A stretch of 64,000 bases of DNA from Mesonia aquimarina (GTDB lineage: Bacteria > Bacteroidota > Bacteroidia > Flavobacteriales > Flavobacteriaceae): contig NZ_RCNV01000001.1 of the NCBI RefSeq assembly GCF_003667275.1, positions 496,001 through 560,000 of the forward strand, in the 5' to 3' direction. A model generated the notes under the pieces. It worked only from the letters and a program-made list of their open reading frames with translations, was not told the DNA's origin and did not search any database. Positions 3,567-24,021 of this stretch are shown here, piece by piece. The position numbers were made by a program, and so were the translations under genes. Every line of letters starts with the position of its first letter. The stretch's first letter is position 1.

Positions 3567-4802
3567 ATGAAAAAAATAAGTATTTTATTTATTCTATGCG
3601 GAATTTTTATAGCAAACGCACAAGAAACTACCGTAAACCTGAGCCTTCAATCCAATTATTCAGACGAGGTTTATTATAAAATTTCAACTGACCAAAGCGA
3701 AGCTTATACTGCTACAAACTGGGATTTGGCATTTTTAAGAATTGACAACATTAACAAAGCAATTCGTGTGAACGAAGGCAAAGGAATTGAAGTTTACGAA
3801 GCTTCCAATACTGCTTCAGATTGGGCAAGCATAGACGTAAACAATATTGCAAATTTTACGCAATTGCATAATAGTGATACCGATTGGGGAATCGGAGCAT
3901 TAGATAATGGTTCTGCAACATGGGGCTGGGGAGAATATAATATTAATGGTAATCATAAAGTTACCGGTACTATTATTTTTGTCTTAAAATATGCCGACGG
4001 TTCATTCAAAAAATTATTTATCGAAGAATATTTTGGCGCTTATACATTTAAATATGCAAGCTGGAATGAGACAAATTCTAGCTGGGAAAATGAAACTACA
4101 ACTACCGTATCCAACTCATCTAATCCAAACCAAATTTTCAATTATTACAATTTAGAAACCGATAGCGAAGTGATTGCTTCTCCCGCAACAGAAGATTGGG
4201 ATCTCGTTTTTAAAAAATATAGCACCGATGTTGGCGGCGGAATGATGTACACGGTTACTGGCGTACTTCATCATCCAAACTTAACTGTTGCTGAAAATAT
4301 TGAACCCAACGGAAATGGAGATACCAGCAACCTATCGTATTCAACAGACATTAATACAATTGGCTACGATTGGAAAAGTTTTAACGGAAGTGCTTACGAT
4401 CTTGATCCTGAATTATTCTACTATGTAAAATATGCCGACGGAACAATCTATCGCTTGCATTTTACAGATTTTGAAGGTGGTTCTACAGGAAACCTAAGTT
4501 TTACGACCGAAGATGTAACCAACGCATTATCAACCACTGTTTTTGATGCTGAAAATTCGTTCAGTATTTATCCAAATCCTTCAACTGACAAAAAGATTAC
4601 ACTTTTATACGAAAATAATTCAGCTGAAAATACGCAAGTAGCAATTTATGATATGAGCGGTAAGAAAGTATTTCAACAAAAATTAGCACCAAACGGATTC
4701 TATAATAAAGAAATAAATTTAGCCTCATTAGAATCAGGAGCTTATATTTTAAAGTATGCCACAGGAAATTTTACAACCACCAAAAAGTTAATTTTGAATT
4801 AA
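3567..4802 (+). CDS. HmuY-like protein with T9SS C-terminal sorting domain
   Basis: Secreted protein of 411 residues with a signal peptide (MKKISILFILCGIFIANA), two HmuY-like stretches (TNWDLAFLRIDN near residue 50, EDWDLVFKKYSTD near 210, and YVKYADGTIYRLHFTDFE), and a type IX secretion tail from about residue 335 (FSIYPNPSTDKKI, ending YATGNFTTTKKLILN). It is the third gene of the haem operon, 25 bases after the previous one. The tail implies export across the outer membrane and attachment or release at the surface. It may be a haemophore acting ahead of the lipoprotein, which is inference from domain content. Confidence 0.8.
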   Translation: MKKISILFILCGIFIANAQETTVNLSLQSNYSDEVYYKISTDQSEAYTATNWDLAFLRIDNINKAIRVNEGKGIEVYEASNTASDWASIDVNNIANFTQLHNSDTDWGIGALDNGSATWGWGEYNINGNHKVTGTIIFVLKYADGSFKKLFIEEYFGAYTFKYASWNETNSSWENETTTTVSNSSNPNQIFNYYNLETDSEVIASPATEDWDLVFKKYSTDVGGGMMYTVTGVLHHPNLTVAENIEPNGNGDTSNLSYSTDINTIGYDWKSFNGSAYDLDPELFYYVKYADGTIYRLHFTDFEGGSTGNLSFTTEDVTNALSTTVFDAENSFSIYPNPSTDKKITLLYENNSAENTQVAIYDMSGKKVFQQKLAPNGFYNKEINLASLESGAYILKYATGNFTTTKKLILN

Positions 4803-20550: not shown

Positions 20551-20934
20551 ATGAGCGATAAAGGAACGATGCAGCGAGAAGAAATATTTTCTAAAGTATT
20601 AAGAGCCGGAAGGCGTACATATTTCTTTGATGTAAGAGCCACAAAAGCAGATGACTACTACCTAACCATTACGGAAAGTAAAAAATTTACCAACGAAGAT
20701 GGTTCTTTCTACTACAAAAAACACAAAATTTACCTTTATAAAGAAGATTTTGCTGGTTTTGAAGAAATCTTAAAAGAAATGACAGATTACATTGTCGAAG
20801 AAAAAGGCGAAGAAGTAATTAGTGAACGTCATCAGAAAAATTTCAAAAAAGAATACGAAACTGTTTCAGAAAACGGTGAAAGTAATTCTGATTCTACAGG
20901 AGATTTTACCGATGTAAGTTTTGATGATATATAG
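20551..20934 (+). CDS. PUR-family DNA/RNA-binding protein (DUF3276)
   Basis: Cytosolic protein of 127 residues with a single PUR repeat: EIFSKVLRAGRRTYFFDVRATKADDYYLTITESKK, then FYYKKHKIYLYKEDF and FEEILKEMTDYI, which form a beta-beta-beta-beta-alpha unit. The C-terminal 35 residues are acidic and serine-rich. PUR proteins bind single-stranded nucleic acid as dimers; the role in Bacteroidota is not established. Followed by a bidirectional terminator. Confidence 0.92.
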   Translation: MSDKGTMQREEIFSKVLRAGRRTYFFDVRATKADDYYLTITESKKFTNEDGSFYYKKHKIYLYKEDFAGFEEILKEMTDYIVEEKGEEVISERHQKNFKKEYETVSENGESNSDSTGDFTDVSFDDI

Positions 20935-20998: not shown

Positions 20999-21760
20999 CT
21001 ACCTTTTAATAGAGCTCAGTTGCGCTTTCAATTCATCCATAGATTGTTGCAATTGTTTTAGCATACTATTTTCAGAATTGGCGTCTAAACTAAATGTTAG
21101 CTTACTAGTAACTTGCCAAATTTCCTGAATATTTGAAACTTTAACTTCAAATGGCGCATATTCTTCATTTAAAGAAACTAATCTAATTTTTGAAGGCTCA
21201 ATTAATTTATGTAGCTTTTTTACCACAACCGTATCGTACATTACTATTACATAAATTTTATGATCGGTAGCTTCCGCTAAACTCGGGATCGCTTTTGCCA
21301 AAACCCAATCGTCCGGACGTAAATTAGGCAACATACTATCACCTTCTACTTGAAAACCACGATAGGTTGCATTTCTGTATTGGGGTAACGGAAAGTCGAA
21401 AGCAGGCAATTGTTTATACCACTCTACATCTTGAATATTATGCGGGTATCCTGCTGCTGCACGTTGATTTACCATCATAATATTTTCATCTTCTTCAGAA
21501 TTTACCGTAATCACTTTTGGCATCGTATCTACTTGATGAATATTTAAATGTTTTTGATGACTTTGCCCAAACAACCACATTGGGTTAATGCTAAATTGTT
21601 TCAAAAGTTCCATGACGACTGTTCCGGCAAGTTTTGTTCTGCCGCGTTCAATATCTGCAGTTGAACTTTTTATACCTAATTTTTCAGCAAATTCAGCTTG
21701 TGTAAACTGATTTTCCTCCCGAACTTCTTTAAATCGTTTTATTTCAATAGCTGTTTCCAT
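20999..21760 (-). CDS. XRE-family transcriptional repressor with LexA-like S24 peptidase domain
   Basis: Helix-turn-helix DNA-binding domain (residues about 5-65: FTQAEFAEKLGIKSSTADIERGR) joined to a S24 self-cleaving domain. Numbering from the ATG at 21760 (253 residues), a likely Ala-Gly cleavage site is at 103-104 (QRAAAGYP), the catalytic Ser is in VEGDSMLPNLRPDD (142) and the general-base Lys in TVVVKKLHK (181 or 182). This is the architecture of SOS and prophage-type repressors. The frame extends to ATGs at 21775 and 21817, but the 21817 start would place two of the three operator-like sites inside the gene, so I prefer 21760. Divergent from the radical SAM repair gene. Confidence 0.88.
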   Translation of the reverse strand: METAIEIKRFKEVREENQFTQAEFAEKLGIKSSTADIERGRTKLAGTVVMELLKQFSINPMWLFGQSHQKHLNIHQVDTMPKVITVNSEEDENIMMVNQRAAAGYPHNIQDVEWYKQLPAFDFPLPQYRNATYRGFQVEGDSMLPNLRPDDWVLAKAIPSLAEATDHKIYVIVMYDTVVVKKLHKLIEPSKIRLVSLNEEYAPFEVKVSNIQEIWQVTSKLTFSLDANSENSMLKQLQQSMDELKAQLSSIKR

Positions 21761-21781
21761 ATCCCAAATATACATTTTAAC

Positions 21782-21834
21782 GGAATATTTCCGAAATAAT
21801 TTTAGGAATAAATCCATTTAAAAGGAATTAATCC
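21782..21834. promoter_or_regulatory. Three copies of an 11-bp operator-like site GGAATWWWTCC
   Basis: GGAATATTTCC (21782-21792), GGAATAAATCC (21805-21815) and GGAATTAATCC (21824-21834), centres 23 and 19 bp apart. Each is palindromic or nearly so. They sit in the divergent promoter region between the S24 repressor and the radical SAM gene, where an auto-regulated repressor would bind. A related half site appears at 21843-21853 on the other strand. Confidence 0.6.
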
Positions 21835-21864
21835 GTAATTTCGTATAAATTCCAAAATGAAGAT

Positions 21865-23148
21865 ATGAATTTTGATCGAATAAAAGAAAAACTTACTATT
21901 CTTGCCGATGCTGCTAAATATGATGTTTCTTGCTCTAGCAGCGGAAGCAAACGTCAAAATACCACAAAAGGTTTGGGAGATTCCAGCGGAATGGGAATTT
22001 GCCATAGTTATACCGAAGATGGGCGCTGTATTTCGTTACTAAAAATTTTATTGACCAACCATTGCATTTTCGATTGTGCGTATTGCGTAACCCGAAAAAG
22101 TAATGACATAAAACGCGCGGCATTTAAAGTGCAAGAAGTAGTTGATTTAACGATTAATTTTTACCGAAGAAATTATATTGAAGGGCTTTTTTTAAGTTCA
22201 GGAATTTTTAAAAGTCCCGATGCTACAATGGAACGCTTGGTGGAAGTAGCTAAAAAATTACGCCTAGAAGAAAATTTTAACGGTTATATTCATTTAAAAT
22301 CTATTCCCGGAGCGAGTGATGAGTTAATGCACGAAGCAGGTTTATATGCCGATCGGCTTTCGGTAAATATAGAAATTCCCACAAAAGAAGGACTCAAATT
22401 ATTAGCACCCGATAAAGAGCGAAAGGATTTTTTACAACCGATGAAAAAAGTAAAAAATGAAATTATAAAATATAAGGCTGAAAAAAAATTGATAAAAAGC
22501 ACGCCAAAATTTGCTCCGGCGGGACAAAGCACGCAAATGATTGTCGGCGCCACACAAGAAACCGATGCGCAAATTATGTACACCGCGGCATATTTTTATA
22601 AAAAATACCAAATGAAGCGCGTTTATTATTCAGGTTATATTCCTATAAGTTACGATCCGCGTTTGCCTTCTATCGAAACAGAAGTACCAATGTTACGCGA
22701 AAACAGACTGTACCAAACCGATTGGCTAATGCGTTTTTACGGATTTTCTATTGAAGAATTACTGAATAAAGAGCACCCGAATTTAGATAGCGATATTGAT
22801 CCGAAATTGAGTTGGGCGCTACGAAATTTACATTTATTTCCTGTGGATGTAAATAAAGCAGAAAAAGAGATGTTAGCGAGAATTCCTGGATTAGGTATGA
22901 AATCGGTTTATAAAATTTTAGGCGCCAGAAAATATAGAAATCTTAATTGGGAACACCTTAAAAAAATTGGCGTCGCTTTAAACAGAGCGCGCTATTTTAT
23001 GGTTTGTAATTCTAGCGATTATGAAAAAAGAGATTTATCGGCGGCTTCAATTAAAAGTTTAATTCTTCAAAATTCGGCGAGTAAATTTAGAAACACCTAT
23101 TCTAATCAGTTGAATTTATTTGATAAAGCTGATGCGTTAATTAAATAG
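21865..23148 (+). CDS. Putative DNA modification/repair radical SAM protein (TIGR03916-like)
   Basis: Protein of 427 residues. The radical SAM cluster motif is CIFDCAYC at residues 67-74 (C-x3-C-x2-C), preceded by the family-typical SGSKRQNTTKGLGDSSGMGICHSYTEDGRC region with three more cysteines. The C-terminal part (about 335-375) carries a helix-hairpin-helix, RIPGLGMKSVYKILGARKYR, which implies DNA binding. This domain pair defines the radical SAM family linked to uracil-DNA-glycosylase-like partners. The actual reaction is unknown. Divergent from an S24 repressor and followed by its usual partner gene, so damage-inducible expression is likely. Confidence 0.88.
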   Translation: MNFDRIKEKLTILADAAKYDVSCSSSGSKRQNTTKGLGDSSGMGICHSYTEDGRCISLLKILLTNHCIFDCAYCVTRKSNDIKRAAFKVQEVVDLTINFYRRNYIEGLFLSSGIFKSPDATMERLVEVAKKLRLEENFNGYIHLKSIPGASDELMHEAGLYADRLSVNIEIPTKEGLKLLAPDKERKDFLQPMKKVKNEIIKYKAEKKLIKSTPKFAPAGQSTQMIVGATQETDAQIMYTAAYFYKKYQMKRVYYSGYIPISYDPRLPSIETEVPMLRENRLYQTDWLMRFYGFSIEELLNKEHPNLDSDIDPKLSWALRNLHLFPVDVNKAEKEMLARIPGLGMKSVYKILGARKYRNLNWEHLKKIGVALNRARYFMVCNSSDYEKRDLSAASIKSLILQNSASKFRNTYSNQLNLFDKADALIK

Positions 23149-23199
23149 TAAAACTTCGATAAGCTGGGTTTAACAAACTCTGATTGATATTTATTTTTA

Positions 23200-23239
23200 A
23201 TCTCACCGTAATAATGAGATGCTGAAACAAGTTCAGCAT
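23200..23239. repeat. Intergenic palindromic repeat (GCTGAA-CAAG-TTCAGC type)
   Basis: Two inverted repeats: ATCTCA/TGAGAT (23200-23205, 23215-23220) and ATGCTGAA-ACAAG-TTCAGCAT (23219-23239, perfect 8-bp stem). The second unit is nearly identical to one at 54021-54039, so this is a dispersed element. Confidence 0.65.
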
Positions 23240-23265
23240 GACGATACTAAAAGATTTATTTAACT

Positions 23266-24021
23266 ATGATTTTTAAATACGATGGCTCTTTTGAAGGTTT
23301 TTTAACCGCAGTATTTTCTGTTTATGAGTTTAAATGTGAAAATGTCACGATTATTAAGGAAACTCAACACGTTGAAAGTTTATTTGAAGAAACAGAAGTG
23401 GTCATAACTTCGGAAGAAAAAGCAAATCGTGTTTGGAAAAAAATTCAGCAAAAAACCGGCTCAAAAGGAAGCCGACAAATTTATTGGGCTTTTTTAAGTG
23501 AATTATCCGGCGTAGAAAATACATTGTTTCAATATATTCAACACGCGATTAATTCAACTAAAAATATCACTACCGATTATTCTAATCAAGCGGTTTTAGA
23601 AGTTTCACAAATCGTTAAAAAAGTGGGTCGAGAAAAACATAGAATGGATGCCTTTGTTCGTTTCAGAAAAACGAAAGACAATATTTATTTTGCTACTATT
23701 GAACCCGATTTTAATGTCTTGCCGCTAAATGCCAAACATTTTAAAAATCGTTACGCCGACCAACATTGGTGTATTTACGATCTAAAACGAAATTATGGAA
23801 TTTATTATGATTTAGATTCAGTTGAAATAATTCAGTTAGAACTTCCGAATTCTATTTTAAATACCTCAACCGATTTTTTTACTGCTGAAGAAATGCAATT
23901 TCAACAACTTTGGAAAAATTATTTTGACAGCACGAATATTAAATCTCGAAAAAACACTAAACTTCACCAACAACACGTTCCGAAACGTTATTGGAAATAT
24001 TTAAGTGAGAAGTATTTATAA
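23266..24021 (+). CDS. TIGR03915-like putative DNA repair partner protein (DUF4130)
   Basis: Protein of 251 residues matching the partner that is usually encoded next to the radical SAM repair protein: N-terminal MIFKYDGSFEGFLTAVFSVYE, central RVWKKIQQKTGS and AVLEVSQIVKKVGREKHRMDAFVRF, GIYYDLDSVEIIQLELP, and C-terminal QQHVPKRYWKYLSEK. In other organisms this domain can be fused to a uracil-DNA glycosylase domain; here the protein ends without one. No catalytic residues can be assigned with confidence. Expected to act with the upstream radical SAM protein. Confidence 0.85.
   Translation: MIFKYDGSFEGFLTAVFSVYEFKCENVTIIKETQHVESLFEETEVVITSEEKANRVWKKIQQKTGSKGSRQIYWAFLSELSGVENTLFQYIQHAINSTKNITTDYSNQAVLEVSQIVKKVGREKHRMDAFVRFRKTKDNIYFATIEPDFNVLPLNAKHFKNRYADQHWCIYDLKRNYGIYYDLDSVEIIQLELPNSILNTSTDFFTAEEMQFQQLWKNYFDSTNIKSRKNTKLHQQHVPKRYWKYLSEKYL

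Follow-up and report, generated by a model that had tools for sequence, protein, structure and literature searches.

We describe here a locus at positions 20999 to 24021 of a 64,000-nucleotide stretch of the Mesonia aquimarina genome (contig NZ_RCNV01000001.1; hereafter the window), in which a LexA-like repressor gene stands divergent from a gene for a radical S-adenosylmethionine (SAM) protein and its small DUF4130 partner. Because three operators lie in the shared promoter and are conserved in relatives, the repressor almost certainly controls the radical SAM-DUF4130 pair, as judged from the sequence. We consider it probable that the locus as a whole works as an SOS switch, one arm of which is a repair operon: DNA damage would free the operators, both arms would be induced and the enzyme would act on damaged DNA. 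The genes, the operators, their phasing, their conservation and the other targets in the genome are established in this analysis; the regulatory half of the proposal is well supported and known in kind, while the enzymatic half is what we infer. The locus thus adds a good new example to a known type of SOS unit, along with several features that can be tested, rather than a new kind of system; its SOS repressor comes with a three-operator switch like that of a phage.

The repressor is encoded on the minus strand within an open reading frame (ORF) at 20999-21817, whose product matches Peptidase_S24 (49.3 bits), HTH_19 and HTH_3, all three above the Pfam cut-off. Ala122-Gly123, Ser161 and Lys200/201 (numbered along the ORF) are each kept by 95% or more of the 43 homologues aligned, a set that leaves aside L203 (same strand, weak). 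These results bear out the sequence-only reading of this DNA, which had named a LexA-like repressor with an Ala-Gly site and a Ser/Lys dyad. Since the alignment of homologues begins at ORF residue 8 to 24, the inner Met at 21760 is probably the true start, and we place the repressor gene at 20999-21760. With its S24 domain, CI-type HTH_3, Ala-Gly and Ser-Lys residues, and GGA-N5-TCC in its own promoter, the protein has the features of a non-canonical LexA of the GGA-N5-TCC type. Passages of PMC8565304 (Sanchez-Osuna et al. 2021) state that canonical LexA is absent from the Bacteroidetes phylum, that the GGA-N5-TCC group of repressors occurs primarily in Flavobacteriaceae, and that this motif was shown to be the operator of the S. 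agarivorans repressor by electrophoretic mobility shift assay and mutagenesis. The same passages report that mitomycin C induces the repressor gene and predicted targets in relatives, and that operator binding was shown.

The 104-bp gap between the repressor gene and the radical SAM gene holds three exact GGA-N5-TCC palindromes spanning 53 bp: operator 1 at 21782-21792 (GGAATATTTCC), operator 2 at 21805-21815 (GGAATAAATCC) and operator 3 at 21824-21834 (GGAATTAATCC). The motif occurs 13 times in the window against 5.97 expected, and at that expected rate three sites in one such gap would arise by chance about once per several million tries (Poisson). On the repressor side a candidate -7 box of the form CAAAnnTA lies before the first operator (21765-21772, minus strand, TATATTTG); on the radical SAM side a candidate -7 box begins 1 nt past operator 3 (21836-21843, plus strand, TAATTTCG), with one mismatch to TAnnTTTG, which we take to be the Bacteroidetes -7 consensus. 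We compared this arrangement across 26 promoters, 15 from genomes of the family and 11 from named loci with a divergent repressor. The operators are spaced mostly by 23 bp (21 times) and 18 bp (15 times), then by 19 bp (seven times) and 22 bp (four times), with five others. In 24 of the 26 loci a TAnnTTTG box stands exactly 1 nt past an operator, compared with 86 of 5200 shuffled rightward flanks, and a mirror CAAAnnTA box stands 8-11 bp ahead of the first operator in 23, a count that goes with a shuffle control made for the rightward side only. The exceptions are three promoters without the leftward box, the window, which has no perfect rightward box, and L010, whose rightward box is 19 nt off; the outermost GGA site of L020 was excluded from the -7 box analysis and included in the spacing and consensus counts. 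New here are the phasing of the operators, mostly at 23 and 18/19 bp, and the divergent -7-like boxes on either side of them in these 26 loci, together with the linkage survey and the SOS boxes of other lineages given below.

The linkage between repressor and enzyme was surveyed in 80 genomes of the family, that of the window among them, sampled evenly from a larger group, with a repressor threshold of E 1e-30 or better. The enzyme was found in 23 genomes, the repressor in 33 and both in 18. In 15 of these 18 the two genes are divergent neighbours, and all 15 carry at least two operators between them. The remaining three hold the two genes about 6 kb apart (G009), on different contigs (G056) or about 275 kb apart (G074), and G074 keeps two operators at the enzyme promoter despite the distance. 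Five genomes with the enzyme and without the repressor (G012, G013, G020, G042 and G077) serve as a control, since none has an operator in the enzyme promoter. A second set consists of the 80 best loci kept of 591 confirmed ones; its proportions lean to close relatives, and it may share species with the family set. Among its first 17 members, nearly all of which we assign to Flavobacteriaceae from knowledge of the genera, 12 have a divergent repressor, and 11 of these show three or four operators. Zobellia russellii KMM 3677 (L135) is one culturable relative that shares the arrangement. The backwards form of the motif occurs once each in five of 87 loci.

A repressor dedicated to the pair was ruled out, as 15 of the 33 repressor-bearing genomes have no radical SAM gene. 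The earlier proposal that the repressor controls the pair is upheld as almost certain, with operators in the shared promoter kept in relatives. It had also been held that a repressor unlinked to the pair in close relatives would speak against control. Such unlinked repressors do exist; yet they do not refute control, since this repressor regulates SOS genes globally.

This wider role is seen in the rest of the genome. Across its 3.28 Mb just three distinct places have two GGA-N5-TCC sites 5-14 bp apart, and the backwards-read pattern, paired in the same way, gave none. The three are the window promoter, the stretch preceding a PA0069-family SplB-like radical SAM gene, and a ClpB-like coding region (identified by eye), where the tandem pair is presumably due to chance. 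The SplB-like gene (L115 5391-6491; genome C18:172506) has the sole other intergenic tandem operator pair in the genome. In addition, a single GGAATATTTCC begins 14 bp ahead of a UmuD-like ORF (identified by eye) that precedes umuC (PF00817), the umuDC-like pair lying at L303 688-2351; this locus has two further GGA-N5-TCC sites, both inside coding sequence, and none is present at the dinB locus (L302). Because umuDC and the SplB-like gene carry its site, the repressor likely has several targets in this genome. Single GGAATNNNTCC matches number 126 genome-wide on both strands against 47 for the backwards control, and further targets may be among them.

From these results we propose the following course of events. 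In undamaged cells, repressor dimers on the three phased operators would repress their own gene as well as the radical SAM-DUF4130 genes. Once RecA filaments have formed on single-stranded DNA, they would lead to self-cleavage of the repressor at the Ala-Gly bond, the freed operators would allow transcription of both arms, and the radical SAM enzyme, brought by its helix-hairpin-helix (HhH) region and by DUF4130, would perform radical chemistry on a DNA lesion. Cleavage of the repressor in this species, damaged DNA as the enzyme's substrate and DUF4130 as a non-catalytic nucleic-acid-binding partner of degenerate DHH fold are presumed parts of this scheme. DNA damage is likely to be the inducing signal for the pair, because of what passages of PMC8565304 report for this class of repressor and because the same site stands at umuDC and at the SplB-like gene. 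The claim that DNA damage switches on the pair thus appears likely. The regulatory link is not new in kind, since those passages already report this repressor class and predict a COG1573-COG4277 operon in its regulon.

The radical SAM gene (21865-23148, plus strand) encodes a TIGR03916 protein, a family described as putative DNA modification/repair (678.9 bits, cut-off 343.5). The sequence-only reading had given this protein a C-x3-C-x2-C motif and a C-terminal HhH. The motif, C67-x3-C71-x2-C74 (22063-22086, plus strand), is invariant in 79 of 79 aligned sequences, so this part stands; the putative HhH region (residues about 327-369; 22843-22971, plus strand) is weaker, with PF12836 at 21.8 bits below its cut-off of 27 and, among PDB sequences, the ComEA-type chain 2duy matching at E 0.0061. 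Three cysteines outside the core motif, C23, C46 and C55, are likewise invariant in 79/79 and 15/15 aligned sequences, with L136 and L137, whose ORFs begin at an internal Met, excluded from alignment A4. The predicted structure has a mean predicted local distance difference test score (pLDDT) of 72.8, and its best fold matches are radical SAM enzymes, with lipoyl synthase 4u0o first (Z 11.5, root-mean-square deviation (rmsd) 3.9, 218 aligned) and HydE, biotin synthase and others tied with it. Spore photoproduct lyase is not among the 50 fold matches shown, where a missing row excludes nothing.

Lipoyl synthase carries the cysteines of its extra cluster ahead of the core motif, and it is possible, though somewhat less than an even chance in our view, that the enzyme likewise holds a second iron-sulfur cluster on C23, C46 and C55, which would serve radical chemistry on a nucleobase, for instance as an electron relay or a sulfur donor. 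Such a cluster would be compatible with the repair reading. The invariance of the three cysteines and the rank of 4u0o among the structural matches point to it, as does a 30%-identical relative on a Gemmatirosa plasmid (L131), which has no DUF4130 in its locus and lacks all three cysteines. On the other side, that part of the model is poor, with block pLDDT of 35-58 over residues 11-30 and 41-80, and the three cysteines could instead bind zinc or act as a hydrogen donor. Profile alignment by hhalign reached 4.5% with LipA, 5.1% with BioB and 2.7% with a PA0069-type protein. This failure is informative because the LipA-BioB control reached 98%, which indicates that the enzyme has no close sequence-level kinship to these proteins. 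A second cluster is thus no more than possible; the three extra invariant cysteines offer a handle for concrete experiments on the enzyme. The Gemmatirosa relative keeps CX3CX2C and an HhH-like region, and perhaps represents a sister family.

The partner gene follows 117 bp downstream (23266-24021, plus strand) and scores above the cut-offs of both TIGR03915 (286.8 bits, cut-off 112.25) and DUF4130 (188.5 bits, cut-off 27), in agreement with the earlier assignment of a TIGR03915-like partner. The 117-bp gap contains a short inverted repeat (23218-23242, plus strand), present as a single copy in the window and terminator-like on the minus strand only; no terminator-like site is found on the plus strand of the gap, and its folding is no better than that of shuffles (z -0.94). 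A long gap is not unusual, since 8 of the first 17 named loci have gaps of 48-404 bp, the other 9 having at most 12 bp, and the two genes are presumably co-transcribed across it.

A clue to what DUF4130 may be comes from its predicted structure (mean pLDDT 92). By Foldseek the best PDB match is the DHH-family PAP phosphatase 8a8k (E 4.9e-4, probability 1.00, TM 0.42/0.35, rmsd 7.0); two matches fall below E 0.001, both of them 8a8k chains, and DHH proteins also make up the majority of the twenty that follow. VIA-align gives 8a8k at Z 8.9 (191 aligned, rmsd 5.2), Staphylococcus aureus RecJ at 8.0 and Cdc45 at about 7, and its first 45 of 50 matches are DHH proteins, several of them replication chains that we take, from the matched range, to be Cdc45 or GAN. 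Members of the DHH family carry the catalytic motifs DHH and DxD. Neither is among the invariant or near-invariant columns of the DUF4130 alignment (A3, made without the near-duplicates L147, L164, L166, L168 and L170 and without L192 and L210 because of their length), in which D6 and G11 are kept near the N terminus. A search of this alignment against PDB sequences returned S100 proteins alone (E 0.05-0.7), and Pfam found in its members no family beyond DUF4130 except scattered single-member matches. On this model DUF4130 appears, provisionally, to resemble a degenerate DHH-DHHA1 (RecJ/Cdc45-like) fold without the catalytic motif.

Loci with the repressor and without the enzyme offer another view of the partner. 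In 13 of the 15 such loci inspected, the repressor faces DUF4130 alone in six, a DinB-like gene in one, and something else or nothing clear in six. The six DUF4130 cases (L063, L064, L066, L071, L073 and L079) have operators between the two genes and no TIGR03916 in the genome; in L071 and L073 the gene is followed by an ORF that looks UvrA-like by eye. In five of the six the TIGR03915 match ends early (position 195, 196 or 223 of 243), compared with 30 of 30 inspected matches that reach the profile end; among other matches, that of G112 ends at 242 and those of G208 and G029 are broken or short. The C-terminal part lost in the enzyme-less copies holds the motif RxNxKLHxxHVPKRYWK, which on our reading may be an enzyme contact that decays after enzyme loss, the alternative being decay of a useless gene.

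The pair itself extends to several phyla, in many with a local SOS box. CTAA-N5-TTAG, the second SOS box published for Bacteroidetes, lies within 130 bp of the enzyme start in 18 of the 80 best named loci, with no adjacent repressor (Sphingobacteriales, Hymenobacter, Pontibacter and others), and its backwards control gave none in 87 loci. In a hand-chosen set of 13 loci from 158 plasmid records of Alpha- and Betaproteobacteria, all 11 alphaproteobacterial loci have GAAC-N7-GAAC upstream, at -17 to -39 in ten of them and at -108 in the other, and both Caballeronia loci have CTGT-N8-ACAG at -29; backwards controls upstream of the 13 gave none. Three clostridial loci have CGAAC-N4-GTTY or GAAC-N4-GTTC sites; that of L206 is upstream only with the start set at 3986, which is our choice, and that of L212 carries little weight, since the surrounding 9 kb contains two more sites of this kind. 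In the literature, parts of PMC3828012 describe putative LexA control of CAC3343-CAC3344 in Clostridium acetobutylicum, a passage of PMC8565304 cites earlier reports in Verrucomicrobia and Alphaproteobacteria, and parts of PMC13130816 report higher expression, in desiccated Acinetobacter Tol 5, of a gene with the annotation of this radical SAM family. No substrate for the pair was found in the open-licence PubMed Central papers searched.

Several observations weigh against an SOS-controlled repair unit. In the window itself the rightward -7 box carries one mismatch. The enzyme is missing from 57 of the 80 family genomes, and two of the three genomes with unlinked repressor and enzyme have no operator at the enzyme (G009 and G056; loci L006 and L011). 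Stray sites also turn up: six other named loci have a single GGA-N5-TCC up to 400 bp away or at their start, and repeats of the GTTC-N7-GTTC type occur in one Parabacteroides and three Chryseobacterium loci. None of the boxes tried fits in the Chryseobacterium, Acinetobacter and Psychrobacter loci, nearly all Bacteroidales loci have none of them apart from stray sites, and 6 of the first 17 named loci show none of them. As to the partner, the DHH likeness rests on one model, with the Foldseek TM and rmsd given above, just two matches below E 0.001 and Z mostly 5-8, and the tool itself calls Z below 8 possibly a common arrangement. Profile comparison of DUF4130 with RecJ and NrnA gave nothing, and the RecJ-NrnA positive control reached 24%. 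The assignment stays provisional because profile support is lacking and this control is weak.

Among other explanations of the locus, the one that survives best is that the enzyme modifies DNA or another polymer for a purpose other than repair, such as phage defence or stress RNA modification. Its patchy spread (23 of 80 family genomes, and 158 plasmid records) would fit such a role, and the TIGR03916 family name itself reads modification/repair. However, SOS boxes stand at the gene in several unrelated lineages and the partner is fused elsewhere to a uracil-DNA-binding domain, and we consider this explanation unlikely.

A still less probable explanation is that the pair is a uracil-DNA glycosylase (UDG) base-excision system, which would clear away the uracil and other wrong bases that error-prone polymerases leave behind. 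Passages of PMC8565304 predict a COG1573-COG4277 (UDG plus COG4277) operon in the repressor's regulon and interpret it as a putative UDG-based base-excision system, and a legend in PMC3765255 lists DUF4130, in its single mention there, as an enzyme predicted to be related to mutagenesis and to go with SplB-like proteins and UDGs. In line with this, 11 of 13 proteobacterial records annotate the following gene as UdgX (of the remaining two, one ends there and one has no annotation), and two UdgX-annotated proteins that we scanned both matched TIGR03915 and TIGR03914. Yet TIGR and Pfam scans found no UDG domain in the window partner, and the genome has no match to TIGR03914 (UdgX), the one UDG family searched. 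On these grounds, and within the scope of that one-family search, we reject uracil-glycosylase repair for this genome. Moreover, 76 of the 80 best named loci have a DUF4130 ORF of 169-307 aa, too short for a UdgX fusion, so that the fusion is an accessory of some lineages and the core unit, by gene content, is radical SAM plus DUF4130 with UdgX as an addition. The link to UDG-like domains that had been drawn for this family thus holds for the fused proteobacterial version, and the UdgX-type domain is absent from the window partner and its genome. Setting the pair apart from the uracil-glycosylase label and proposing a testable fold for DUF4130, like pointing to the three cysteines, makes a vague annotation accessible to experiment. 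That the repressor and the pair are mere neighbours, with the operators serving repressor autoregulation alone, could be argued from the 15 of 33 repressor-bearing genomes without the enzyme and from the two of three unlinked copies without an operator, but is the least credible of all, since in 24 of 26 loci the -7-like box of the enzyme follows an operator at a distance of exactly 1 nt, G074 has two operators at an enzyme promoter about 275 kb from its repressor, and many lineages without an adjacent repressor have their own SOS box there.

Returning to the SOS switch with its repair operon, we speculate, well aware that the odds are against the whole of it, that DUF4130, as a RecJ/Cdc45-like DHH protein without catalytic activity, loads a radical SAM enzyme with two clusters onto damaged single-stranded DNA. 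The pair would then be an SOS-induced direct repair system of several phyla, with UdgX optional, and after enzyme loss DUF4130 would tend to lose the contact motif RxNxKLHxxHVPKRYWK, yet keep its SOS control and perform a separate task.

Some observations beside these subjects may be recorded. In L080 (G068) the repressor faces the DinB-like gene with three operators between them, and DNA polymerase IV models are all below cut-off. In L055, L060, L061, L077 and L078 a short ORF opposite the repressor has, by eye, a lipoprotein-like signal and an Ala/Glu/Asp-rich tail, and is a candidate SOS-induced envelope or division factor; the repressor of L077 (G038) contains one in-frame stop. In the window, a DUF3276 protein gene (20551-20934) is convergent with the repressor.

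Comparison with known systems places the locus among several relatives. In the right operator of phage lambda three sites lie between a pair of divergent promoters, one of which serves the repressor itself, and the window shares this layout together with an S24 repressor. It differs from lambda in that there is no cro-like gene and a repair operon replaces the lytic genes. The proteobacterial loci share with the window the families TIGR03916 and TIGR03915, the order of radical SAM gene then partner, and an SOS box (in all 13 examined for it), but in their fused version the partner carries UdgX (TIGR03914), whereas that of the window is standalone in a genome with no UdgX match. CAC3343-CAC3344 of Clostridium acetobutylicum, in which CAC3344 would take the place of DUF4130, appears comparable to the pair and differs in having canonical LexA. 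Spore photoproduct lyase and SplB-like enzymes are, like the window enzyme, radical SAM proteins placed in an SOS regulon; the SplB-like PA0069-family gene of this genome has the same operators as the pair but belongs to a different radical SAM family, of which the core motif alone aligns. The DHH-DHHA1 proteins RecJ, NrnA and Cdc45 may resemble DUF4130 in predicted fold, while DUF4130 lacks the DHH motif and profile support, and RecJ and Cdc45 are far larger. The closest counterpart appears to be the Bacteroidetes non-canonical LexA described in passages of PMC8565304. The likeness to the tested protein there, WP_075324850.1, is one of features, and damage induction is reported for relatives. 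The features in common are the S24 domain, the CI-type HTH, the Ala-Gly site, the Ser/Lys dyad, GGA-N5-TCC in the repressor's own promoter, and a regulon with umuDC, a SplB-like gene and COG4277.

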